DNA from: Bryobacterales bacterium
Lineage (GTDB): Bacteria > Acidobacteriota > Terriglobia > Bryobacterales > Bryobacteraceae
Assembly: GCA_009697455.1 (NCBI GenBank)
Contig: SHUI01000013.1
Coordinates: forward strand, 1 to 34,304
Direction of reading: 5' to 3'
Length of the DNA stretch: 34,304 bases
The notes under the pieces are model-generated. The model had not been told where the DNA came from, searched no databases, and saw nothing but the letters and a program-made list of their open reading frames with translations. Both the position numbers and the translations under genes were made by a program. This document shows, one piece after another, positions 2,548 through 33,887 of the stretch (position 1 is the stretch's first letter; each line of letters begins with the position of its first letter).

Positions 2548-3061
2548 ATGCGGCGCGGAGCGATCCACGGGTGCGACCTCGAACCGCGCAGCGGTCAGGA
2601 GCAGGGTGAACGCCGCCCTGTCGTAATCGTCTCGGCGGATCTCTACAATGCCAGCCGGTCACTGTTGATTGGCATCGTTCCTCTCACTCGCTCGCCCGCA
2701 AAGACTCTTCTCCATGTCGCTTTGACGCCCGAAGACACCGGCCTGGAGGCACCCTCGACGGCGCTTGAGGACCATGCCCGCTTCATTGATCGCTCACACC
2801 TGCGCCCGGACGCCGCCGGACGCTTGTTCACGGAAGGCGCTGAGCTCGATCGACCGGAATCTCGCCCGCGTGGTGGGGCTGCCAGCGGAAGGTTTGTCGA
2901 AGGACTCCCGGCAAACCCAAGAAATGTCCGGAGAGACTGGAAGCGCTCCGCGACCAACCCTCAGGTCACGCCAGGGCCTCGCGCACAGGCGGCATGCGAT
3001 CCACGAAACCGGCCTTTGTGCGTTTGAGTTCGGCGATGGCCGCGGCCCGGAATTGCTTTAG
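2548..3061 (+). pseudogene. MazF/PemK-type toxin (endoribonuclease family), frameshifted
   Basis: From ATG 2548 the product reads MRRGAIHGCDLEPRSGQEQG, then ERRPVVIVSADLYNASRS and IGIVPLTRS. This is the pattern of the MazF/PemK fold: RGxIxxxDL, then RPVVIVS, then VVPLT. MazF toxins cleave mRNA. The family C-terminus is found only in the next frame (ALSSIDRNLARVVGLPAEGL). A single extra base near 2833-2837, in a GGAAGG context, would explain the switch. After the shift the frame runs on to TAG at 3059-3061, overlapping the 3' end of the convergent sulfatase by about 95 bp. A normal MazF would be about 110 residues, ending near 2880-2910. It is either a true pseudogene or a sequencing error; the degraded antitoxin favours decay. 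Family call is good, intactness doubtful. Confidence 0.7.
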
Positions 3062-4474
3062 CCGCGCCTGATGCTCGGGCTTGATCGAGAGGTTGTTAAG
3101 TTCGTCGGGATCGGCCTGTAAATCGTAGAGTTCCTCCAGATCGTGGATGAGCGGGCGGACGTATTTGTACCGCTTGTCGCGCAGCATGACATACCAAGGA
3201 ACGCCGTTGTGGAGCGCCTTCGCTCCCTTGGGGATGTTGTCCGTGTCGGAGCCGTAGGTCTGGCCCGTCGCGACCATCATGCACGGATGCGGCCAGTTAA
3301 GGCTGGGATTCTTGAGGAGCGGCGTAAGGTCATGGCCGTGCATCTCCCACGGCGGTTTGATCCCGGCGAAAGAATAGATGGTAGGAGCTATGTTCACCCC
3401 AGCGACCGGCGTGTCACAGACCTTGCCTTCGGGGATGCGGCCTGGAAAAGAGAAGACGAGCGGCGAACGGATGTTGGCGTCGTAAGCCGCGATCTTCGTG
3501 CCCTTGAAGCCGTGTTGGCCGAAAGCGAGTCCCTGATCCGAAGTGAAGATCACAAGCGTGTTCTTTCGCTGGCCCGTTTCATCAAGAGTTTGCATCAAGC
3601 GCCCCACGGCTTCATCGAGCGCGAGCACGCCCTCGTGATACTGCTGTACCCAGGCGCTAAGAGTGCGCCCGCCCGACATCGGAACACCTCCGGGTCCTTT
3701 TTCCCAATGTTGGATTTTTTGGGCCCAATCCGGTTTGCCGGGGCGCGGCGCGAAGATGTCTTTTGGCGTCTCGAAGTCCACTCCCTTGAGTTTTCCGATG
3801 TGGCGTTCAGCAGGAGTGTAGGGGTCGTGCACGGCTCCAAAGCACAGCCAGAGATACCATGGCTTATCTTTCGGACGGCCGTTGCCCTTCATCAGGTCTA
3901 CCGCCCAATCGGTGTATTGGTCGGTTGAATAGCGCTTCAGCATCTCAGTCTTGCCGCCCTGATAGGTGATCGGTTGATCGTAGTAGTAGTGCGTGCTGGT
4001 TTCGAAATATTTTGGACGGTTCCAGACAAGTTGGAAATCCCACTCGCGGTTGAAGCCGGTGTCCTGCCCGGTGTGCCATTTCCCGATCTGCGCGGTGAAG
4101 TAGCCGTTGGCGCGGAGGTGCTTGGGCCAGAAGGGGCACTTGGCGGGGTCGTAGGTCGAATCGGGGTAAGTACCTTGCATGCGCATGGATTCGACCCCGT
4201 GCTGGTGATGTCCCGTGAGCATGGTGGCGCGGGAGGGCATGCACCAGGCGCCGTTATAGGCGGCGGTGAAACGGACGCCCTGTTTGGCGAGCTTGTCGAT
4301 GTTGGGAGTGCGAACCCATGAATAGGCTTCCGGGTAAGCGGAAATGGTGCGGTAGGAGTGGTCGTCGGTGTAGATGAATAGGATGTTCGGACGCTCCTCG
4401 GTGGCGGCTTTTGCGGCCGCGCCGAGCGCGAGGACTCCGAGCACTTCGCGGCGGGTGTGTTTGGTGGTGGGCAT
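2966..4474 (-). CDS. Exported sulfatase (alkaline-phosphatase superfamily)
   Basis: A 502-residue sulfatase hydrolysing sulfate esters, probably on polysaccharides or other organosulfates in the periplasm; the substrate cannot be told. The N-terminus HTRREVLGVLALGAAAKA looks like a Tat signal peptide. Core motifs are PNILFIYTDDHS (D37, D38, metal ligands), the C-x-P-S-R formylglycine site CMPSR with C78 as the residue to be oxidised, GKWHTG (K132, H134), AVHDPYTP (H216) and TSDQG (D313) followed by K325. The usual SDNG is TSDQG here, so one metal ligand is Gln instead of Asn, as occurs in some sulfatase subgroups. It lies 191 bp downstream of another minus-strand sulfatase, with a gap long enough for its own promoter. 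No formylglycine-generating enzyme or anSME is in the window. Confidence 0.93.
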   Translation of the reverse strand: MPTTKHTRREVLGVLALGAAAKAATEERPNILFIYTDDHSYRTISAYPEAYSWVRTPNIDKLAKQGVRFTAAYNGAWCMPSRATMLTGHHQHGVESMRMQGTYPDSTYDPAKCPFWPKHLRANGYFTAQIGKWHTGQDTGFNREWDFQLVWNRPKYFETSTHYYYDQPITYQGGKTEMLKRYSTDQYTDWAVDLMKGNGRPKDKPWYLWLCFGAVHDPYTPAERHIGKLKGVDFETPKDIFAPRPGKPDWAQKIQHWEKGPGGVPMSGGRTLSAWVQQYHEGVLALDEAVGRLMQTLDETGQRKNTLVIFTSDQGLAFGQHGFKGTKIAAYDANIRSPLVFSFPGRIPEGKVCDTPVAGVNIAPTIYSFAGIKPPWEMHGHDLTPLLKNPSLNWPHPCMMVATGQTYGSDTDNIPKGAKALHNGVPWYVMLRDKRYKYVRPLIHDLEELYDLQADPDELNNLSIKPEHQARLKQFRAAAIAELKRTKAGFVDRMPPVREALA

Positions 4475-4665: not shown

Positions 4666-6027
4666 TTATCGCTGCGTCGGCGCCGGCTGAAAACCGGCCT
4701 GATGCGTGGCCATCGCATCCCGCATCCGCGCTACTACATCGGGATGATGGGCTGCGACGTTGAAGCGCTCGCCGTAGTCGGATTCCACGTTATAGAGTTC
4801 GATCTTCGCGGGCTGTTTCGGGTCGCTAAGTCTCAGCTTCCAGACGCCCCGGCGCAGGCCGTGCAATATACCGGAGTGGTAGTAGAAGAAATCCTGTTGG
4901 GTGCGGCCGGCGCCTTCCCACAGCAGAGGAGCAAGGTCGGCGCCGTCGAGCACAAGGTCTTTGGGCGGAGGCCCACCGGTCAGGCGGGCGAGGGTCGGGA
5001 AGATGTCGAGTGTCGAGGCGACGTCCACGCTGACTCGGCCCGGCTGGATACGGCCCTTCCAGCAGGCGATAAATGGCTCGCGATAGCCGCCGTCCCATGT
5101 GGTTCCTTTGCCTTCACGCAATGGACCATTGGATCCGCCATATTCTCCTAACTGAACCGGCGCGCCGTTATCGGAGGTAAACACGATCAGCGTGTCCTGT
5201 TCGAGCTTCAGTTCGGCGAGCGTCTTTCGGATTTCTCCCACGGACCAATCCAGTTCTTCCACGACGTCGCCCAAAAGCCCGCCTCGGCTCTTTCCGCGGA
5301 ACCGGTCGCTGGCGAATAGGGGTACATGCGGCATCGTATGGGCGAAATACAGAAAGAACGGCTTGCCGCCGGTGGCCGCTTTCCGCAGGAATGCCGTGGC
5401 GTCGGCCGTGTAGCGAGCCGTGATTTGAGTTTGGTCCGGATCGCGTTCGAGTACATCCTCGTTCCGCATGAGCGGCACTCCAGGCAGATTCTGGTAGCGC
5501 GAGAGCACGTCCGGAGAACGGGTTTGCCCTCTCCTTTTGTTGATCTCGTCATAGACCACGTTGGTCGCCAGACTCATGTCGTTCGAGTAAGGAATGCCGA
5601 AGTAATTGTCGAAGCCATGCCTGGTGGGCAGGTACTGCGGCAGGTGTCCCAAGTGCCACTTACCCACCATGTGGGTCGCGTAGCCGCGTTGCTTCAGCAA
5701 CTGAGCGATCGTCAATTCCGAGTCGGGCAGTCCGCCGTTCGAGTCAGGGAACAGAACGAAGTTGATGCCGCTGCGGACCGGATACCGGCCGGTTAGCAAG
5801 GCGGCGCGGCTGGGCGAACACAAGGGAGCGGCCGAATAGAACTGCGTGAAACGAATGCCATCGTCCGCCATGCGATCCAGGTGGGGAGTGCGAATTGTGG
5901 GATGGCCGTAGCAACTGAGATCGCCCGACCCCAGATCATCCGCGAAGATCAGAACGATATTGGGTAGTTTCGGGCGTTGCGCCAGCGCAGGAGCGGCGAG
6001 CAAACCAAGCAGGTCTCGGCGTGTCAT
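4666..6027 (-). CDS. Exported arylsulfatase-family sulfatase
   Basis: A 453-residue member of the arylsulfatase A / N-acetylgalactosamine-6-sulfatase type. The short N-terminal signal MTRRDLLGLLAAPALAQ is Tat-like (TRRDLL). Motifs are IVLIFADDLGSGD (D30, D31), the formylglycine site CSPSR with C70, LLTGRYPVRSG, GKWHLG (K123, H125), HTMPHVP (H230) and FTSDNG (D286, N287) followed by K307. All main catalytic residues are present, so it should be active once C70 is matured. It lies upstream of the 2966-4474 sulfatase on the same strand. The two proteins differ enough to be separate subfamilies rather than a recent tandem duplication. The start is the first ATG and places the twin Arg at residues 3-4. 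Confidence 0.93.
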   Translation of the reverse strand: MTRRDLLGLLAAPALAQRPKLPNIVLIFADDLGSGDLSCYGHPTIRTPHLDRMADDGIRFTQFYSAAPLCSPSRAALLTGRYPVRSGINFVLFPDSNGGLPDSELTIAQLLKQRGYATHMVGKWHLGHLPQYLPTRHGFDNYFGIPYSNDMSLATNVVYDEINKRRGQTRSPDVLSRYQNLPGVPLMRNEDVLERDPDQTQITARYTADATAFLRKAATGGKPFFLYFAHTMPHVPLFASDRFRGKSRGGLLGDVVEELDWSVGEIRKTLAELKLEQDTLIVFTSDNGAPVQLGEYGGSNGPLREGKGTTWDGGYREPFIACWKGRIQPGRVSVDVASTLDIFPTLARLTGGPPPKDLVLDGADLAPLLWEGAGRTQQDFFYYHSGILHGLRRGVWKLRLSDPKQPAKIELYNVESDYGERFNVAAHHPDVVARMRDAMATHQAGFQPAPTQR

Positions 6028-24651: not shown

Positions 24652-24706
24652 AAGCGTTTCACGAAGGCGGCTCACGCCGTGCCCGATCCTCTGGCATGCT
24701 AGTAGT

Positions 24707-25636
24707 ATGGTCGCTGGCGACCGCCGAAGATCCGTCGTTATTTTTATCACCCTTGGCTCGTGCGTCGCCGCCATCGCCGTGGCGTTTAATATCGGCTGGG
24801 TGGTGCTGAACTGGCGCGCCGGAGTGCTGCTGCTTCTGGGCCTCGTGTTCTTCCCCTTGATCATCACGGGCGTCGTCCTGAACACTATCTTTCTGGTGCG
24901 TGAGATCCGCCGCAACGAACAGCACGACGCTTTCATCAACGCCGTCACACACGAATTGAAAACGCCTGTTGCCTCGATCCGCCTCTATCTCGAGACGCTT
25001 CAGCAGCGCGAGGTCGACGACGCCAAGCGGAAGGAATTCTACGGCATCATGCTCGCCGATAGCGACAGGTTGTTGAACACCATCGAGCAGGTGCTGCGCG
25101 CGGGACGTTCGTCGCCATCGAAGCGGCGCATCGAACGCATCCCCATCGACCTGCCCGAACTGGTTCGCGAGTGCATGCTGCTTGCGAGGACGCGGCACCA
25201 TCTTGCCGTCGATTCGATCCACTTCACGCAGTCGGTTCCGGCGGATGCGCCGGCGACCGTCGTGGGCGACCTGGAGGAGATCAAAGCGGCCGTCTCGAAT
25301 CTGCTCGACAACGCCATCAAGTATTCGGGCCCGAGTGTGCAAGTGCGCGTGGAGACCGCGCGCGTGGACGGGAAGCAGGTCGCCGTTCGCGTCACGGACC
25401 AGGGCGTCGGGATTCCGAACCTCGAATTGAAGCGGATTTTCCGGCGTTTCTACCGGATTCCGGGCTCCGTCGCCATGCGCGTCAAAGGCACGGGGCTGGG
25501 ACTCTTCATCGTGCGCTCGGTGGCGGAGCGGCACGGAGGCCGCGCCTTCGCGGAGAGCGCCGGAGCGGGCCTCGGCAGCACGTTCACGCTCCAACTTCCG
25601 AGCCCCGCGCCGAAGCAAACCGGCAAGACGCAATGA
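24707..25636 (+). CDS. Sensor histidine kinase with no large extracytoplasmic sensor domain
   Basis: A 309-residue HisKA/HATPase kinase. Two membrane helices (about residues 8-30 and 38-65) are joined by only a few residues, so there is no periplasmic sensing domain and no HAMP is obvious; sensing would be intramembrane or through a partner. The H box is FINAVTHELKTP with H82 as phosphoacceptor. The N box is NLLDNAIKYS (N202), G1 is DQGVGIP, the F box is RIFRRFYRI and G2 is GTGLGLFIV. All catalytic motifs are intact. The ATG overlaps no other gene; its ribosome-binding site is poor. The stop overlaps the start of the response regulator by 4 bp (ATGA), a translationally coupled pair. Confidence 0.93.
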   Translation: MVAGDRRRSVVIFITLGSCVAAIAVAFNIGWVVLNWRAGVLLLLGLVFFPLIITGVVLNTIFLVREIRRNEQHDAFINAVTHELKTPVASIRLYLETLQQREVDDAKRKEFYGIMLADSDRLLNTIEQVLRAGRSSPSKRRIERIPIDLPELVRECMLLARTRHHLAVDSIHFTQSVPADAPATVVGDLEEIKAAVSNLLDNAIKYSGPSVQVRVETARVDGKQVAVRVTDQGVGIPNLELKRIFRRFYRIPGSVAMRVKGTGLGLFIVRSVAERHGGRAFAESAGAGLGSTFTLQLPSPAPKQTGKTQ

Positions 25637-26349
25637 CCCGGGTCTTGATCGTGGAGGACGAGCGGCATCTGGCGGACGGCTTGCGGTACAACCTGGAAGC
25701 CGAAGGTTTCGAAGTGGAAACCGTTGACACCGGGGAAGCGGCGCTGTCACTGCTCCTTCCGCCGGCCGCGCGTTTCGACCTTCTGGTGCTGGACGTGATG
25801 CTTCCGGGCAAGGACGGCTTCACGGTAATCTCGGAAGTCCGCCAAGCCGGCCAGTTCATTCCAACTCTGATGCTCACCGCGAGGGGACGCCCGGAGGATG
25901 TGCTGCGAGGTTTCGCCGCCGGCGCGGACGACTATCTTCCGAAGCCCTTCGACTTGTCGATCCTGACCGCGCGACTCCACGGCCTGCTTCGCCGCCATCA
26001 ATGGATCAGCCGGACTCAGGCGCCCGCGGCCGAAGCCGATGTTTTCACTTTCTCCGGCCGGACCATCGACTTCAACGCGCTTGAGCTGCGCGCGCGCGGC
26101 CAGACCTTTCCACTCACCTTGATGGAGGCCAATCTGCTGCGCTATCTGATCCGCCACGAAGGCAAATCCGTCACACGCAAGGCGATGCTCGAAGAGGTCT
26201 GGGGTGTTCGCGAAGACACCGACACGCGGCCGATCGATAATTTCATCGTCCGCCTCCGCCGCTACATTGAAGAAGAACCGTCGCGCCCGAGGCATCTGCT
26301 TACCGTGCGAGGCGTGGGCTACAGGTTTCTCGCCGAACCCGGCGCGTAG
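25633..26349 (+). CDS. OmpR/PhoB-family response regulator
   Basis: A 238-residue response regulator. The receiver domain (1-118) starts MTRVLIVEDERHLADGLRYN, with acidic pocket E8/D9, phosphoacceptor D54 in LLVLDVMLPGKDG, T82 in MLTARG and K104 in YLPKPF. The C-terminal winged-helix domain (about 140-235) contains FPLTLMEANLLRYLIRHEGK, then LEEVWG and RPIDNFIVRLRRYIEE, and ends with HLLTVRGVGYRFLAEPGA, typical of OmpR/PhoB. It starts inside the kinase stop codon. The target genes are unknown; no conserved binding repeats were found upstream of the kinase. Confidence 0.95.
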   Translation: MTRVLIVEDERHLADGLRYNLEAEGFEVETVDTGEAALSLLLPPAARFDLLVLDVMLPGKDGFTVISEVRQAGQFIPTLMLTARGRPEDVLRGFAAGADDYLPKPFDLSILTARLHGLLRRHQWISRTQAPAAEADVFTFSGRTIDFNALELRARGQTFPLTLMEANLLRYLIRHEGKSVTRKAMLEEVWGVREDTDTRPIDNFIVRLRRYIEEEPSRPRHLLTVRGVGYRFLAEPGA

Positions 26350-26372: not shown

Positions 26373-28142
26373 CTACTTCAACGTCCTCGCCCGTGCCTCA
26401 ATCTTCTTCGCCTCAGCCGCGCGGCGATTCTTACGCATCGTGCCGGCCAGGTTCCGAAGCACAACCGCCAGGCTACTGTCCGAGGGCCCGAGCGCCTTTT
26501 CGGTGAGCCCGGCAGCACGCAGAAACAGCGGCTCCGCTTCGGTGAAACGGCCCATCTGGCTGCAAAGCATGGCCAGGTTATTCAGGGTGCTGGCCTGGAG
26601 CGCGAGATCGCTTTCGGGAAACGCTTCCCAGATCGCGAGGGCGCGCCTGTAGAGTGGTTCCGCCACGGCTGGGCGCGAGTCGAGATGATAGGCGTTGCCG
26701 AGCGCCGTCAGCGTTGGCGCGAGTGACAGGTGCGACGGACCGGACAGCGCTTCCCTAATCGTCAGCCCTCTTGTGTAATAGCGTTCCGCCTCGGTATAGC
26801 GGCGTAGTGCTACCAGCGCCGTCGCCAACCGGTCCGAGGCATCGGCGGTGGCGCCATGAGTCTCGCCGAAGGATTTCCGTGCGATGTCGAGCGCGCGGCG
26901 GCAGAACGCCTCGGCAAGCTCGAAGTTTGACCGCACGTAATGCAGGTCCGCGAGATTCGTCAGGACCAGGCCCGTGTCGGGGTGCTCGGGCCCCAGAGCC
27001 TTTTCGAAGTTCGCGAGCGCCTTCTTGTAGAGCGCGGCGGACTCCTCCGGGCGTCCTTCCTGGCGCGAGATTGCCGCGAGGTTGTTCAGGACCCTCCCTA
27101 CGCTCGAATGCTCCGGGCCGAGAGCCTTCTGGTAGATTCCCAGCGTTCGCAGGTACAGTGCCTTTGCTTCGGCGAGGCGCCCTTGCAGCCGGTGGAGGTC
27201 GCCAAGATTGTTCAGCACGGCCGCCGTCACAGGGTGCGAAGGTCCGAGCGTTCTCTCGTCCACGGCAATCGCGCGGCGATACATCGATTCCGCTTGCGCA
27301 AGGCGTCCCTGGCTCGCGTAAAGGCTCGCAAGATTACTCAGGAGCCCCGCAACCAGCGGGTGCTCCGGCCCCAGCGCGCGCTCGCGGATTGCCAGAGCGC
27401 GCAGGTAAAGATCCTCCACGCCATCGAAGGCCGCTCGCTTTACGCGGATTTCCGCAAGATTGGCCAGCGCTGTCGCCACGCTCGGACTCTCCGCGCCAAG
27501 CGCCTTCTCCCAAATTTCCAGAGCCCTTCGCGCGATTTGCTCCGATTCGTTGTACTTGCCCGCTTTGTTCAATACAACCGCGAGATTGTTGAGTGTTGTC
27601 GCGACCCGCGGACTGCCGGCATCAAGCGCCTTCTCCTGGATGCCCAGAGCGCGCCGGTGAATTTCTTCGGCCTCTTCGAGCGCTCCCTGCGCGGACCGGT
27701 AGGAAGCGAGGTTGTCGAGAAGGTCCGCAATCTGAAGCTCGTCGCGACCGGGCGCCTTCTCCCGTATCGCAATGGCGCGCCGGACGAGCGCTTCGGCTTC
27801 GGAATAGCGCCCCAACGCGTTAAGCGCCGCGGACAGGTTGTTCATCGTGGCGGCAAGTTCGGAGTGACCCTCCCCGACGCGGTTCCGCCAGATTTCGAGC
27901 GCCCGTTCGTAGTAGGCAATCGCTTCGGCGTAGCGTGCGGTTTCGTAGCAGACGACACCGAGGCTGTTCAGGCTCCGCGGCGCGTCCGAGCCCTCGTCAA
28001 GCGCGCGGAGATACCACCGCTCGGCTTCAACATGCTTGCTTTCGCGGCGGAGCGCGTTGCCCTTCGCCATGAATTCTTCCCACTGTTCCGTTTGCGCGGA
28101 AGCGGCCGCGCACACGAGTACCGTAAAGACAAGAGTCCGCAT
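26373..28142 (-). CDS. Secreted tetratricopeptide-repeat protein (kinesin-light-chain type)
   Basis: A 589-residue protein with a short signal peptide (MRTLVFTVLVCAAASA). The rest is almost entirely 42-residue TPRs of the kinesin light chain / TPR_12 type, roughly a dozen units. Each has the pattern VA..LNNLA....(G)RY.EAE.LYRRALAI.EKALGPEHP. No catalytic domain is present, so it should be a periplasmic or exported protein-binding scaffold. A GGAG ribosome-binding site lies 7 bases before the ATG. It follows the HEAT-repeat gene at 28265-29152 by 122 bases on the same strand, so it may be the last gene of the sigma/anti-sigma transcription unit or have its own promoter. The coding repeats give near-periodic 126-bp DNA. 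Confidence 0.9.
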   Translation of the reverse strand: MRTLVFTVLVCAAASAQTEQWEEFMAKGNALRRESKHVEAERWYLRALDEGSDAPRSLNSLGVVCYETARYAEAIAYYERALEIWRNRVGEGHSELAATMNNLSAALNALGRYSEAEALVRRAIAIREKAPGRDELQIADLLDNLASYRSAQGALEEAEEIHRRALGIQEKALDAGSPRVATTLNNLAVVLNKAGKYNESEQIARRALEIWEKALGAESPSVATALANLAEIRVKRAAFDGVEDLYLRALAIRERALGPEHPLVAGLLSNLASLYASQGRLAQAESMYRRAIAVDERTLGPSHPVTAAVLNNLGDLHRLQGRLAEAKALYLRTLGIYQKALGPEHSSVGRVLNNLAAISRQEGRPEESAALYKKALANFEKALGPEHPDTGLVLTNLADLHYVRSNFELAEAFCRRALDIARKSFGETHGATADASDRLATALVALRRYTEAERYYTRGLTIREALSGPSHLSLAPTLTALGNAYHLDSRPAVAEPLYRRALAIWEAFPESDLALQASTLNNLAMLCSQMGRFTEAEPLFLRAAGLTEKALGPSDSSLAVVLRNLAGTMRKNRRAAEAKKIEARARTLK

Positions 28143-28264: not shown

Positions 28265-29152
28265 CTACTTCACGAATTCTTCGACGAAGGCGCGAGCGCG
28301 CGCGTCCTTCGATTGCCCGAGCCGCCGCAGCGCCTCTTTGCGGGCGGGCGGATTGTCCTTCGCGCGGGCGATCTCGATCAGCGCCGGTACGCCAAGTTCG
28401 TCACCCACTCGCGCGAGCCCCTGTATCGCCTGTCGCATCACTTCATCGGCGGGATCGTTCCGGATAATCGCCGTGAGCGTGGGGATGGCTTCCCGTCCGC
28501 CGCGGTCCGCGAGCCTTCCCACCGCGTACGAACGCATCTTCATGTTCTTGTCGTCGCGCGCGATCGCGGTCAGCGCCGTGAGCGCTTTCGGTTCCCGGTT
28601 CCGGGCGAGCGCCGAGATCGCACGCTCCCGCAGCCAATCCGGTTCCGATGCGTTCGCCAGCCGTTCAAGTGCCTGTTCGGCTTCCGGGCCTGAGTGCTGC
28701 GACATCACCGAGATCGCCGATTCCCGCACCCGCTGCCGTTCCCGCGTGGCGGAATCCGCGGTCTTTACGATCCTCGTGAGCAGCGCCACGCTCTGCGCCT
28801 GCGTAACTCCGGTGAACACGGTAAAGCTCTGTCCGCCGGCATCGATCTCACATTCCGGAGGCAGCGTCCGTATTCTCGTCACCGCTCCGCTTTCAAGGCG
28901 GACCAGCACCAGAGCACGTTCCGCGCCGTCGAGATGAACCACGTTCGAACAGCTTTGCCAACCGCCGTCGCCCGCGACACCAATGGAATAGCCGAACCAC
29001 CCGGCTGGCTGCTGGCGCGCGAGCCCGGCAGCAGCCGCGTCCAAACCTCCAGCGGCCGGGCGGGTCTCGAGTTTCGCGTTTCTTACGCGCGGTTCCTGCG
29101 CCGCCGCCAAAAGGCACACGAATCCAACTGTGGCAATTCTCAAGGTCTTCAT
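28265..29152 (-). CDS. Secreted HEAT-repeat protein
   Basis: A 295-residue protein with signal peptide KTLRIATVGFVCLLAAA. The N-terminal third (about 25-130) is a beta-rich unknown segment with GWFGYSIGVAGDGGWQSCSN. The C-terminal part (about 135-295) is a set of HEAT repeats: QALERLANASEPDWLRERAI, LTALTAIARDDKNMKMRSYA and VPALIEIARAKDNPPARKEA. These alpha-solenoids bind proteins. A GGAG ribosome-binding site lies 6 bases before the ATG. It sits 25 bases after the other HEAT gene (29178-30632), so both are likely in the ECF sigma operon. Binding partner unknown. Confidence 0.85.
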   Translation of the reverse strand: MKTLRIATVGFVCLLAAAQEPRVRNAKLETRPAAGGLDAAAAGLARQQPAGWFGYSIGVAGDGGWQSCSNVVHLDGAERALVLVRLESGAVTRIRTLPPECEIDAGGQSFTVFTGVTQAQSVALLTRIVKTADSATRERQRVRESAISVMSQHSGPEAEQALERLANASEPDWLRERAISALARNREPKALTALTAIARDDKNMKMRSYAVGRLADRGGREAIPTLTAIIRNDPADEVMRQAIQGLARVGDELGVPALIEIARAKDNPPARKEALRRLGQSKDARARAFVEEFVK

Positions 29153-29177: not shown

Positions 29178-30632
29178 CTACTTGTTGAGTACTTCGAGCA
29201 GAAAATCCGCCGCTTCCTTCGACTTCATCCGCGACAGGTTCTGCACCGCCTCACGCTTCAACGCCGGGTTCGTTTCCTTGCGCGCCAACTCCACCAGAAT
29301 CTTCACGTTATTCTGCCTCGCCATCGTGCGCAGAATTTCCTTCTTCACTTCCGCGTCCGCCTCGCCCGGATAGAGGGCCGCGATCGACTCTCCATTCTTC
29401 GCCGCGTCGCGCCGCTGCAAGGCGCGCAACGCTTCGAGGCGCAGTTTCGAGTCCTTATCGGTCTTCAGAATCTCCAGCAGCTTGTCCGAATTGCCGCCAC
29501 CCGCCATCGCTCGCAGAATCTCCTGCTTGATGTCCGGTGCGGCTCCCTGATACATCTGCCACAATTCAACGTCGGCGCGCATTTCGCCCATCAGCCGGAT
29601 CGCATCCCGTCGAAGTTCGGGCGAGGCTTCCGTCTTGGCCGCGTTCACCACGCGCTCCCGGTCGCCGTTCGCGACGAAACCACGCAGGATCTCCCGCTTC
29701 ACTTCCACGCTCGTCGCCGAACTGTAAATCTCGCCCAATACCTGACGGCTCTCCTTGCCCTTCATCGCCGTGCCCAGATAGCGCAGCGCCTTCAACTGCA
29801 AATCCGGATTCGATTTCCCGCGAGCGATCTGCGTCAGCGTCTCGCGTCCTTTGACGGACCCGCTTTGCGCCAGCACGAACAGCGCGCGCTCCTTCATCTT
29901 CGGCGAGTGGCTTCCCATCAGCAGTTTCTCTATCAATGGAACGGCGCGCTCGGGGTCTGAATTGACCAGTCCGTTCAGAGCTATCAGCTTCAACTCGTCG
30001 TCGTCCTGGCTTTCGGGCGAAACCGGCTGTCCCGAAGCCTGACTGATCTCGACCGAAAGCGCCTTCGAATCGTTCAGCCAGCCGCTAGCAGGATAACTCT
30101 TCGCCAGGTCCGCGAGCGCCGCCTGAGCCTCGGGACGCCGTCCCAGTTTGTGCAGCGCGTACGCCTTCCAGTAGAGCGCTCCATCGGATCGCGAGCCGCC
30201 GCGGGAAACGATGCCGGAGAACACGTCCACCGCGCGCTCCCATTTGCGTTCGTCGAGCAGCCGCGTTCCCTCGCGGTATCGGCCGTCTTCCGAGTTGCCC
30301 CCCTTCCATTCGTACTTGAAGTCTTTGTCGAAGTTCTGGGCAATAAGTCCGAGCGTCCTGGCTTTCTCCCTCACGGCGTCCATCTGCTCTGTCACCTGAT
30401 TCATCACATTCATGTTGAAGGTTGCTTTGACTTCGGCCGCAATCCTGCGCGCCTCATCGGCGATGCGATCAAGCTCAAACCGGTCGAACGCCGGCCCCAG
30501 CGGAGCAAGGCCGGGAACGGGCCCCGCTTCAGGCGCGGGATCCGGAGCCGGGGGCTTCGGCGGCTGCGGCTGGGCCGTCACCGGCGCCGCGTAAAGAGTA
30601 GCCAGCAAACAAGTCTTCAAAATCCAGTCCAT
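29178..30632 (-). CDS. Secreted TPR/HEAT-repeat protein
   Basis: A 484-residue protein. A signal peptide (LKTCLLATLYAAPVTAQ) is followed by a Pro-rich linker (residues 22-45). A helical segment has FELDRIADEARRIAAEVKAT. One or two TPR-like hairpins follow (YREGTRLLDERKWERAVDVF, then GALYWKAYALHKLGRRPEAQ). The second half has about seven HEAT repeats (for example LKALRYLGTAMKGKESRQVL, VKREILRGFVANGDRERVV and LKREAVQNLSRMKSKEAAD). It begins 18 bases after the anti-sigma factor stop, with GAGGA before the ATG, so it is translated from the same mRNA as the sigma/anti-sigma pair. Probably a periplasmic scaffold; no enzymatic motif seen. Confidence 0.87.
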   Translation of the reverse strand: MDWILKTCLLATLYAAPVTAQPQPPKPPAPDPAPEAGPVPGLAPLGPAFDRFELDRIADEARRIAAEVKATFNMNVMNQVTEQMDAVREKARTLGLIAQNFDKDFKYEWKGGNSEDGRYREGTRLLDERKWERAVDVFSGIVSRGGSRSDGALYWKAYALHKLGRRPEAQAALADLAKSYPASGWLNDSKALSVEISQASGQPVSPESQDDDELKLIALNGLVNSDPERAVPLIEKLLMGSHSPKMKERALFVLAQSGSVKGRETLTQIARGKSNPDLQLKALRYLGTAMKGKESRQVLGEIYSSATSVEVKREILRGFVANGDRERVVNAAKTEASPELRRDAIRLMGEMRADVELWQMYQGAAPDIKQEILRAMAGGGNSDKLLEILKTDKDSKLRLEALRALQRRDAAKNGESIAALYPGEADAEVKKEILRTMARQNNVKILVELARKETNPALKREAVQNLSRMKSKEAADFLLEVLNK

Positions 30633-30649: not shown

Positions 30650-31405
30650 TTATAGTTTGTCTTGCCGCGCGGACGTTTCCCCGCGCTCTCTGTCGCGAAT
30701 TCTCGTGCCCGCGACCCGTACCTTGAATAAAATTCCTTCCGCTTCGAGGCGCGCCCGCAATCTTTCGAAATCGCTCCGGGGCAGTGCCTCCGGGCTATGC
30801 GCGATCTCGAGCAGCACCCGCTCCAGATCGTCGAGCAGCGACGTCACCGCGCCGTCGTCCGCGGACGCCGCCGTCTGCCGGTACAGCCGATTCGCGTCGA
30901 GCAAATCCTCCGCCGCCGCGCGTCCCGCCGACATATCGACCGCGCGCCCGCCGCGGGTGTTCGCGATCTCCATCAACATCAGTTGCGACCGGTCCAGATG
31001 ATCTCCCACGGCGAGCAGCAATACCCTTTCCCTAACCGCCGGCGAAGCCTGCGCGGCTGCCGAAGGCCCACGCCGCTCCATCGACATGCGCCCGGCGAAA
31101 AAAGCTACGGCCAACATCGCGGTCATAGCCGCCAGCGCGGGAGCCCACTTCCACGCCCGAAGGAAGAACCATGTTCGGGCTCTGCGCTCCGGCAGGCGAG
31201 GCACAAGACTTCGCCAAACTTCGCCGCCGTACTCGTTGCCGCGCTCGGGTACCGCCTCTTCTGCCACCGCGTTCAGTGCGGATTCGAAACGCTTGTACGC
31301 ACGCCGGCAATCTTCGCACGTCGCCAGATGCGCACCGATCCCGCCCGGCGCGCCGCTCTCTCCGTAGTAATGCAATACCAGTTGCTCTTCACTTGGATGC
31401 TTCAT
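30650..31405 (-). CDS. Zinc-finger anti-sigma factor, single membrane segment
   Basis: A 251-residue anti-sigma factor of the ZAS/zf-HC2 type. The N-terminal cytoplasmic domain has the zinc motif H-x3-C-x2-C (H26, C30, C33, in HLATCEDC). One membrane helix (about 87-107: WAPALAAMTAMLAVAFFAGR) leads to a periplasmic region of about 140 residues, mostly helical and charged. Such proteins hold their ECF sigma factor inactive until a signal releases it. It overlaps the sigma gene by 4 bp (ATGA), so the two are made together. The large periplasmic part could bind the exported HEAT proteins encoded downstream; that link is inference. Confidence 0.85.
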   Translation of the reverse strand: MKHPSEEQLVLHYYGESGAPGGIGAHLATCEDCRRAYKRFESALNAVAEEAVPERGNEYGGEVWRSLVPRLPERRARTWFFLRAWKWAPALAAMTAMLAVAFFAGRMSMERRGPSAAAQASPAVRERVLLLAVGDHLDRSQLMLMEIANTRGGRAVDMSAGRAAAEDLLDANRLYRQTAASADDGAVTSLLDDLERVLLEIAHSPEALPRSDFERLRARLEAEGILFKVRVAGTRIRDRERGETSARQDKL

Positions 31406-31965
31406 CGTGTAACTCCGCTCATTAACGGCTCAAGCGCATGCCTTAGCTTTGTCGCGGCCCGGAATATGCTGTTCTTGATCGCTCCGCCGCTTGGCCCGAG
31501 CGACCAGCTGATCTCCTCGATCGATAGTCCGTCAAAGTGCCGGAGCGAAAACGCCGCCCGTTCCATCGGGCTCAACTCCCCGAGTGCCGCCGCGATCCGC
31601 TCGCGTAGTTCCCCGCTAAAGGCCAGACGTTCCGGTTCGGGTTGGGGCGCGCGGAACACGTCGTTCTCCGGCATCGGAGTTGTCCGCCGCCGCTCCCTGG
31701 CCCTCACGAAGTCGAGCGAACAGTTCGCCGCAATCCGGTAAAGCCAGGTTCCGAAACTCGATTCCACGCGGAACGAATCGATGTTCCGGTAAGCTCTGAG
31801 GAACGTCTCCTGGACCACGTCCTCGGCGTCTTGTTCGTTTTGCGTCATGCGAAAGGCCAGCCGGAAGACGTTTCGGCTATGGCGTTCCACCAGCGCGCGA
31901 TACGCGCTCTCGCCGCCCGCCTTTACGCGAGCGACAAGCGCCGCGTCGTCCTCAATCGCTTCCAT
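31402..31965 (-). CDS. ECF RNA polymerase sigma factor (RpoE-like)
   Basis: A 187-residue sigma70-family factor with only regions 2 and 4, the ECF plan. Region 2 is RLAFRMTQNEQDAEDVVQET, then FLRAYRNIDSFRVESSFGTW and LYRIAANCSLDFVRARERRR (core binding and -10 recognition). Region 4 is RIAAALGELSPMERAAFSLR, then HFDGLSIEEISWSLGPSGGA and IKNSIFRAATKLRHAL, the helix-turn-helix for the -35. An AAAGG ribosome-binding site lies 5 bases before the ATG. Its cognate anti-sigma factor overlaps its end. A candidate ECF-type promoter lies upstream (31996-32024), suggesting autoregulation. Confidence 0.93.
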   Translation of the reverse strand: MEAIEDDAALVARVKAGGESAYRALVERHSRNVFRLAFRMTQNEQDAEDVVQETFLRAYRNIDSFRVESSFGTWLYRIAANCSLDFVRARERRRTTPMPENDVFRAPQPEPERLAFSGELRERIAAALGELSPMERAAFSLRHFDGLSIEEISWSLGPSGGAIKNSIFRAATKLRHALEPLMSGVTR

Positions 31966-31995
31966 CCGACCTTTAGACTACACAGTTCGCCGGCG

Positions 31996-32024
31996 GTTAG
32001 GTCCCGTGAGGAAATAACTGTTCC
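31996..32024 (-). promoter_or_regulatory. Candidate ECF-type promoter of the sigma operon
   Basis: The minus strand shows GGAACA (32024-32019), 17 bases, then CCTAAC (32001-31996), placed about 30 bases before the sigma ATG. ECF promoters often carry a GGAAC -35 with a 16-17 base spacer. This is a single-site guess. Confidence 0.3.
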
Positions 32025-32423: not shown

Positions 32424-33833
32424 TCAGCGGTGTCCGAACTGCCTTTCGTAGAGTTCCACGAACGGATTCACTTTCGGTGGGACGGCATTTTCGTTTTCGA
32501 GCAACGGCAGAATCTCCGCCCACCATTTCTCGTAGGCCGCGTCCATCCGCTTGACCACCTCCGGAAACTCCGCGGCGGCATCCTTCGATTCTCCCGGATC
32601 GGCTTTGAGATCGAACAGCAGCCAGGTGGCCTCGCCCTTCCCGGGGTGCACCAGACTGTAGCGGGCATCACGCACGCGGCAGGTCAGGTGTTTCGATTCG
32701 GCCGCTTTTCCAATCTCCCATCGCCCCAAATGCGTGAACAGGTATCGATCGGGCCACGGCGCGTCGGGCTTATTCAGAAGCGGCACAAGACTCCGGCCAT
32801 CGGGCCGAACTCCGGCTGGAACCTTCGCTCCCGCGATCTCGGCGAGCGTCGGGAACAGATCGATGTGGGCCGCAAGCCTGTTCACATTTCCCGGTTTCAG
32901 CCTCCCGGGCCAGCGGAAGAACGCTGCCGCCCTCGTTCCGCCCTGCCAAGCCGAACCCTTCGCCCCGCGCATCCCCGCGTTGAAGATGCGGACTCCGTTT
33001 GTGCCGCCGTTGTCGTTCATGAAAATCAGCAGCGTGTCGCGATCGATGCCCCACGTCTTCAAGCCGCCGAGCAACCGGCCCACCGCGTCGTCGATATTCG
33101 TGATCATGCCGTAAAACTTAGCGGCGTTCGCATCCACGTTGGGCAGGCCTTTGTACATCGCTTCGTATTTCTCAGGACAGTCGAGCGGCGCGTGCGGCGC
33201 ATTGGGTGTAATGTAGGCGAAGAATGGAGTGGCCGCCTTGGCCCGGGCTTCGATCCACTTCATCGCCTGACCAAAGAACACGTCCGTGCAGTAGCCCTCG
33301 GTCTTCTCAAAGACGCCGTTGTGCAGGATCGCGGGGTTGAAATATTTGTTGCCGGGTGCGTCGCCGCAAGTGCCCGGATAAACCTGCCCAATCCCGCCGC
33401 AGCCGTGGATGAACACTTCGTCGAAACCACGCCGGTTCGGCTGGTACGGCGCTGCGTCGCCAAGATGCCACTTGCCGAAAATGCCGGTCGTATATCCGGC
33501 GGACTTCAGCACCTGAGCAATCGTCGTGGCCTTCAGACTCAGCCGCTCCCGTTCGAGAATCGTGTGCGTCACACCCGACTTGAATTCGTGACGACCGGTC
33601 AACAAGGCCGTGCGCGTGGGCGAGCAGGTCGGGCTGTTATGGAAATCCGTAAACCGCACAGCCTCAGCGTGGATTCGGTCGAGATTCGGGGTCTTAATAA
33701 CGGGGTTCCCGTGGCAGGCCAGATCGCCGTAGCCCTGATCATCCGTGAGGATCAGAATCACGTTCGGCGGACGCGAAGTCTGGGCAAGTGCAACGGCTCC
33801 CGTTGCGTGGATGAATTCCCGGCGATTGAGCAT
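32424..33833 (-). CDS. Exported sulfatase (third in the window)
   Basis: A 469-residue sulfatase. The N-terminus MLNRREFIHATGAVALAQT is Tat-like (NRREFI). The start is set at 33833, where GGGAGG lies 6 bases upstream, rather than at the earlier in-frame ATG 33857. Motifs are VILILTDDQGYGD (D31, D32 region), the formylglycine site CSPTR with C70, LLTGRHEFKSG, FGKWHLGD, PNAPHAPLD and FMNDNGGTNG in place of the usual SDNG. The core residues for metal and sulfate binding are kept. It is only distantly similar to the other two sulfatases here, so the window encodes three different types. It is followed by a small membrane protein and flanked on both sides by copies of an ~80-bp repeat. Confidence 0.93.
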   Translation of the reverse strand: MLNRREFIHATGAVALAQTSRPPNVILILTDDQGYGDLACHGNPVIKTPNLDRIHAEAVRFTDFHNSPTCSPTRTALLTGRHEFKSGVTHTILERERLSLKATTIAQVLKSAGYTTGIFGKWHLGDAAPYQPNRRGFDEVFIHGCGGIGQVYPGTCGDAPGNKYFNPAILHNGVFEKTEGYCTDVFFGQAMKWIEARAKAATPFFAYITPNAPHAPLDCPEKYEAMYKGLPNVDANAAKFYGMITNIDDAVGRLLGGLKTWGIDRDTLLIFMNDNGGTNGVRIFNAGMRGAKGSAWQGGTRAAAFFRWPGRLKPGNVNRLAAHIDLFPTLAEIAGAKVPAGVRPDGRSLVPLLNKPDAPWPDRYLFTHLGRWEIGKAAESKHLTCRVRDARYSLVHPGKGEATWLLFDLKADPGESKDAAAEFPEVVKRMDAAYEKWWAEILPLLENENAVPPKVNPFVELYERQFGHR

Positions 33834-33887
33834 GCGCGCCTCCCTTCTGTCTAACATTCGTCAGGTGAAACCGAGGCAGGGTGGCCG

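Follow-up and report, generated by a model that had tools for sequence, protein, structure and literature searches.

An ECF sigma/anti-sigma operon with predicted exported HEAT-repeat proteins, conserved across Acidobacteriota

Closest described systems

In Proteobacteria, the RpoE-RseA-RseB-RseC system brings together within one operon an autoregulated ECF sigma factor, a one-helix anti-sigma factor with a periplasmic domain and an exported protein. RseB binds the periplasmic domain of RseA (PMC8103513), and RseA does not rely on a zinc motif (PMC7406223). ECF sigma factors are defined by the presence of sigma2 and sigma4 domains only, joined by a linker of <50 residues, and are autoregulated from promoters that have AAC in the -35 and a CGT-like -10 element; among the 157 ECF groups counted, 102 are without functional insight (PMC8103513). 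The class I anti-sigma domain (ASDI) is an N-terminal four-helix domain, which in about half of the class carries an Hx3Cx2C motif (PMC7406223).

The locus described here lies in a stretch of 34,304 nucleotides from a Bryobacterales genome (contig C245 of an assembly of 4.49 Mb in 320 contigs, 74% complete); this whole stretch is called the window. As in the RpoE operon, an ECF sigma gene, here predicted to be autoregulated, is followed by genes for a one-helix anti-sigma factor with a predicted periplasmic domain and for a predicted exported protein. However, its exported proteins are TPR/HEAT solenoids, its anti-sigma factor has a zinc motif and an RseC-like gene is absent from the operon. 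The two HEAT-repeat proteins, HEAT1 and HEAT2, match HEAT, TPR and other solenoid-type models in Pfam and NCBIfam, and the RseB family is not among these matches at E values up to 0.05. The locus resembles rpoE-rseA-rseB in its working, but with no RseB family match and with a zinc-motif anti-sigma factor it is not a member of that family of operons.

SigW-RsiW of Bacillus subtilis is similar in having a class I anti-sigma factor with Hx3Cx2C, whereas the periplasmic part of the anti-sigma factor differs. We know of no exported HEAT proteins at the SigW-RsiW locus. In CnrYXH-type systems a periplasmic sensor is co-encoded with the sigma/anti-sigma pair; this sensor, CnrX, is a small membrane-anchored metal-binding protein and not a HEAT/TPR protein. 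CnrH is a detectable, distant relative of the window sigma factor, but no metal site was identified in the window proteins. Finally, the TPR part of HEAT1 weakly matches YbgF (CpoB) and BamD-type models, and distant HEAT1 counterparts reach the Pfam cut-off for YfiO. In contrast to YfiO/BamD and YbgF, HEAT1 has HEAT repeats after its TPR part, is encoded in a sigma factor operon and, as a rule, has no lipobox.

Organization of the locus

The operon reads as follows, in the direction of transcription:

31973..32000, minus strand: promoter of ECF type, CTAACC-N16-GTCTAA, separated from the sigma ATG by 7 bp
31402..31965, minus strand: ECF sigma factor, 187 aa, sigma2 and sigma4 domains
30650..31405, minus strand: class I anti-sigma factor, 251 aa, overlapping the sigma gene
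29178..30632, minus strand: HEAT1, predicted exported TPR+HEAT protein (Pfam; 19-genome alignment)
28265..29152, minus strand: HEAT2, predicted exported protein, N-terminal beta domain followed by HEAT repeats (Pfam, AlphaFold)
26373..28142, minus strand: fifth gene, putatively exported TPR protein, 589 aa (Pfam TPR_12/TPR_10)

The gene coordinates given by an earlier, sequence-only reading of this DNA proved correct on recheck, as did the 4-bp overlap of sigma and anti-sigma genes (31402-31965 against 30650-31405) and the gaps of 25 bp between HEAT1 and HEAT2 and of 122 bp between HEAT2 and the TPR gene. HEAT1 does adjoin the anti-sigma gene closely, at a distance of 17 bp and not the 18 bp given at that time.

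The sigma factor has matches to Sigma70_r2 (2.3e-22, residues 25-93) and Sigma70_r4_2 (3.8e-10, residues 121-174) separated by about 27 residues, that is, the domain content and linker length of an ECF sigma factor (PMC8103513). Among solved structures, its nearest relatives are E. coli RpoE and proteins that bear the name SigE. The anti-sigma factor matches zf-HC2 weakly, below the Pfam cut-off, and its family profile matches RsiW at 4.8e-7 and ChrR weakly. The N-terminal motif HxxxCxxC corresponds to H26-x3-C30-x2-C33; C30 and C33 are invariant and H26 is present in at least 90% of 57 anti-sigma sequences. In the AlphaFold model (pLDDT 87), N-terminal helices span residues 6-13, 22-29, 31-49 and 59-70. 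The conserved H26/C30/C33, the four N-terminal helices and the RsiW profile match are those of the ASDI class (PMC7406223). A long helix (88-108), which fits a membrane span, is followed by about 143 residues, in agreement with the periplasmic part of ~140 residues proposed earlier; from the model, the C-terminal part (122-249) is predicted to be a helical periplasmic domain. A Foldseek search with the anti-sigma model returned nothing at E <= 0.001.

HEAT1 matches TPR and HEAT_2 models (the latter at 4.3e-20). In the alignment of 19 genomes its N-terminus varies and is often rich in proline; a TPR part (about 119-185) and HEAT repeats (about 205-484) follow. HEAT2 matches HEAT_2 at 1.2e-38, and its AlphaFold model (pLDDT 92.3) places a beta domain at about 22-114 with the HEAT repeats behind it. 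When the beta and HEAT parts are searched together by Foldseek and VIA-align, the matches are to HEAT/alphaRep and other solenoid proteins; the match to designed alphaRep proteins comes from the HEAT part and is expected for many HEAT proteins. Two cysteines of HEAT2, C101 (55/55 aligned sequences) and C68 (50/55), perhaps form a disulfide. According to a simple rule, signal-peptide-like N-termini are found in 98 of 101 HEAT1 and 63 of 66 HEAT2 orthologues, compared with 5 of 99 sigma controls, and both proteins are thus predicted to be exported to the periplasm. The fifth gene matches TPR_12/TPR_10 at 1e-104 or better.

Conservation of gene order

In 61 relatives, anti-sigma, HEAT1 and HEAT2 were searched for one by one and the surrounding regions retrieved. 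On every contig of sufficient length, HEAT1 follows sigma and anti-sigma, in that order, and in most cases HEAT2 comes after it. Overlaps of 4 bp (ATGA) recur at the sigma/anti-sigma junction, where they are present in 73 loci, and often at later junctions too. Scanning the genomes of all species with the HEAT1 alignment yielded 254 relatives, the best 80 of which were inspected. Within these 80 loci, sigma, anti-sigma, HEAT1 and HEAT2 follow one another on one strand in 60, and two further loci have the four genes plus the TPR gene. Sigma and anti-sigma lie upstream of HEAT1 wherever there is room for them, and all those of the 80 that lack sigma or anti-sigma end at a contig edge; HEAT2 is missing behind HEAT1 despite available room in 8. 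The record titles among the same best 80 matches are of Acidobacteriota type, with the exception of one (L148) titled Cyanobacteria.

The reverse test, in which the anti-sigma factor was the seed and 396 genomes of the phylum were searched, showed the same arrangement: sigma and HEAT1 adjoin the anti-sigma gene in all 29 strong matches with loci, the window excluded. Behind more divergent anti-sigma genes an exported TPR and/or HEAT protein is encoded in 20/20 loci; it is recognized by the HEAT1 profile in 16 of these and by weak Pfam TPR/HEAT matches only in the other 4. HEAT1 itself occurs in 51 of the 396 Acidobacteriota genomes, and in 49 of them, according to the match lists, an anti-sigma match immediately precedes it on the contig, in the same orientation. 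The exceptions are G081, where the genes are on different contigs, and G339, for which the lists give no position.

The conserved unit is therefore sigma/anti-sigma/HEAT1(/HEAT2), its order and strand being kept across Acidobacteriota. The order of five genes for which conservation had been envisaged does not extend to the TPR gene: HEAT1 and HEAT2 are kept beside the sigma pair across the phylum, while the TPR gene was found next to them only in the genus of the window (G001, G002, L106 and L107) and for this reason is left out of the core. No recurrent flanking genes were seen beyond shadow frames of the core genes and neighbours common to small groups of loci, and HEAT1 or HEAT2 homologues were not found on plasmids. 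In two of the divergent loci (L327 and L330) the next gene after the exported TPR/HEAT gene encodes a small protein (about 127 aa), also exported, which is similar in both and unlike HEAT2.

Promoter and candidate targets

The promoter copy at 31973-32000, CTAACCGCCGGCGAACTGTGTAGTCTAA, is the sole exact match within the window, and the 11-base core TAACC-N16-GTCTAA has a single exact match in its own genome, before sigma. Upstream of sigma, TAAC-N17-GTCT is present in 66/98 loci versus 0 in shuffles; if one or two changes are tolerated and the spacer may be 16 or 17, the promoter is found in nearly all 98 sigma-upstream regions, usually 6-13 bp ahead of the start codon. The base before the G of GTC is mostly A or C. 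The position of the motif directly before sigma corresponds, by computation, to the AAC/CGT promoter and autoregulation of ECF sigma factors (PMC8103513), and sigma is predicted to be autoregulated via CTAACC-N16-GTCTAA. The sigma ATG follows the end of the -10 element by about 7 bp, so that the transcript may carry no leader or almost none. In the 122-bp gap between HEAT2 and the TPR gene, the motif was not found with up to three mismatches allowed.

The number of exact matches in relatives, 0-4 per genome and mostly no greater than that of a reversed-pattern control, makes the regulon look small. A wide regulon was considered and rejected on the same count and because in the window's own genome most matches with one mismatch are not followed by a clear gene start. 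The motif is also found before HEAT1/HEAT2 pairs that are unlinked to sigma, in G006 and G033, which ties the HEAT genes to the promoter independently of position and makes them probable sigma targets. A possible additional target, of this sigma factor or of a related one, are ADOP-family permeases (TIGR03434): TAACC-N16-GTCTAA stands just ahead of the start codon in G005, G025 and G036, and the similar TAACC-N16-GTATAA in G022, G029, G030 and G032. These duplicated permeases (L262, L266, L268, L288, L291, L294 and L301) belong to several genera.

Two sites deserve separate mention. At L260 (G033:C58:14500-19500, about 1225-1714 of that region), a reading frame behind the motif joins the ~38 N-terminal residues of sigma in frame to a remnant of HEAT1, which looks like a deletion of the remainder of sigma and of anti-sigma, or may be an assembly error. 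The other site, L251 (G001:C23:39772-39799), is a nearly palindromic form of the motif, TAACCATAGTTAGACTATGGTAGTCTAA, 8 bp ahead of the gene for a PadR-like regulator; it is probably an operator, not the ECF promoter.

A possible envelope-signalling module

Computation supports the linkage of the genes, the promoter match, the conservation of both, and the predicted export, folds and inhibition domain. Whether HEAT1 and HEAT2 also act upon the anti-sigma factor was approached by rate covariation, expressed as partial correlations within the same loci with shared effects removed. Sigma and the cytoplasmic anti-sigma domain gave 0.40, and this value, together with the gene overlap, leads us to infer that the anti-sigma factor binds and inhibits sigma. 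HEAT1 and HEAT2 gave 0.43. The correlation of HEAT1 was 0.19 with the periplasmic anti-sigma domain (95% range 0.02-0.35), 0.04 with the cytoplasmic domain and 0.25 with sigma; the contrast in favour of the periplasmic over the cytoplasmic domain held in 87% of bootstraps. This is a hint of a link between HEAT1 and the periplasmic domain of the anti-sigma factor.

Our preferred reading, to which we give a probability of about 55%, is that of an autoregulated envelope-signalling module with HEAT1 and HEAT2 as its main output, which probably also act on the periplasmic domain of the anti-sigma factor. At rest, sigma would be held by the membrane-bound class I anti-sigma factor via its zinc-motif N-terminal domain. 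An envelope signal would inactivate the anti-sigma factor, probably through cleavage, and the freed sigma would drive the single promoter CTAACC-N16-GTCTAA ahead of its own gene. The resulting transcript would cover sigma, anti-sigma and the alpha-solenoids HEAT1 (TPR+HEAT) and HEAT2 (beta domain+HEAT); it is this joint transcription with sigma from a sigma-driven promoter that would make the two proteins the main output. Like RseB, they would probably also set the threshold by docking: HEAT1 would bind the periplasmic domain, and HEAT2 would bind HEAT1. The parts of this scheme that we infer are the use of the promoter for transcription, the binding, the signal, a stress response, proteolysis and feedback. 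The functional link originally proposed for all five genes is supported for sigma, anti-sigma, HEAT1 and HEAT2, which are linked across Acidobacteriota and share an ECF-type promoter, and is dropped for the TPR gene. That the HEAT proteins form the sensor side, as also proposed, is possible in view of their predicted export and of the weak covariation with the periplasmic anti-sigma part, and the pairs with their own promoter away from sigma suggest that they are output as well.

It is quite possible, at somewhat under even odds, that the module belongs to an ordinary catalogued ECF group with the HEAT proteins as its known neighbours, a view compatible with either mechanism. The sigma factor, the anti-sigma factor and the promoter have the general ECF features (PMC8103513), and the module may be an already catalogued but unstudied group among those without functional insight. 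However, in the literature outside the main ECF classification, which is where the search was made, an ECF pair with HEAT-repeat proteins was not found.

The odds lie rather more clearly against HEAT1 and HEAT2 being effectors only, engaged in repair or assembly while the anti-sigma factor alone senses damage and receives no feedback. The unlinked pairs of G006 and G033 agree with such a role, as does the resemblance of the third protein of distant relatives to BamD/YfiO-type TPR proteins. In the G033 genome, moreover, the anti-sigma factor was not found while HEAT genes and promoters are kept, which favours an output over a sensor role. On the other hand, the HEAT genes adjoin anti-sigma almost obligatorily throughout the phylum, often with 4-bp overlaps, and HEAT1 shows some rate covariation with the periplasmic and not the cytoplasmic anti-sigma domain. 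An RseB-like feedback is one simple explanation of why the HEAT genes almost never leave the anti-sigma gene; the same adjacency would arise if the HEAT proteins were a stoichiometric output kept there by translational coupling.

Chance adjacency of unrelated exported repeat proteins behind a sigma/anti-sigma pair is plausible for the fifth gene but otherwise highly improbable, and is refuted for HEAT1 and HEAT2 because the four other genes are ordered alike, on one strand, over about 100 loci from many families phylum-wide.

If the preferred reading of an envelope-signalling module is taken further, the exported TPR/HEAT solenoids would be nearly the whole regulon as well as the periplasmic input, and the circuit would mainly sense and replenish its own scaffold in a phylum-wide and previously unstudied manner; this stronger version we consider doubtful. 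The phylum-wide operon and promoter do look like a built-in circuit for monitoring the cell envelope in Acidobacteriota. As these are abundant soil bacteria, a conserved circuit provides a concrete entry to the protection of their envelope, and the predicted promoter opens the regulon to direct testing. If HEAT1 binds the anti-sigma factor, this would represent a type of sensor or feedback not seen in the RpoE or SigW systems.

Neighbouring genes

On the plus strand, a response regulator gene (25171-26349; Response_reg and Trans_reg_C) converges on the TPR gene; as called, this ORF includes a long stretch ahead of the receiver domain. Two minus-strand ORFs (25747-26295 and 24659-25750) were rejected as genes: they probably are not genes since they have no family match and overlap the response regulator. 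A plus-strand ORF at 22385-22849 matches a group II intron reverse transcriptase (4.7e-10) and is apparently a fragment. Upstream of the operon, on the same strand, lies a sulfatase gene (32424-33857); of the relatives examined, G002 alone has it next to the operon. Two further sulfatases are encoded in the window at 2966-4474 and 4666-6027.
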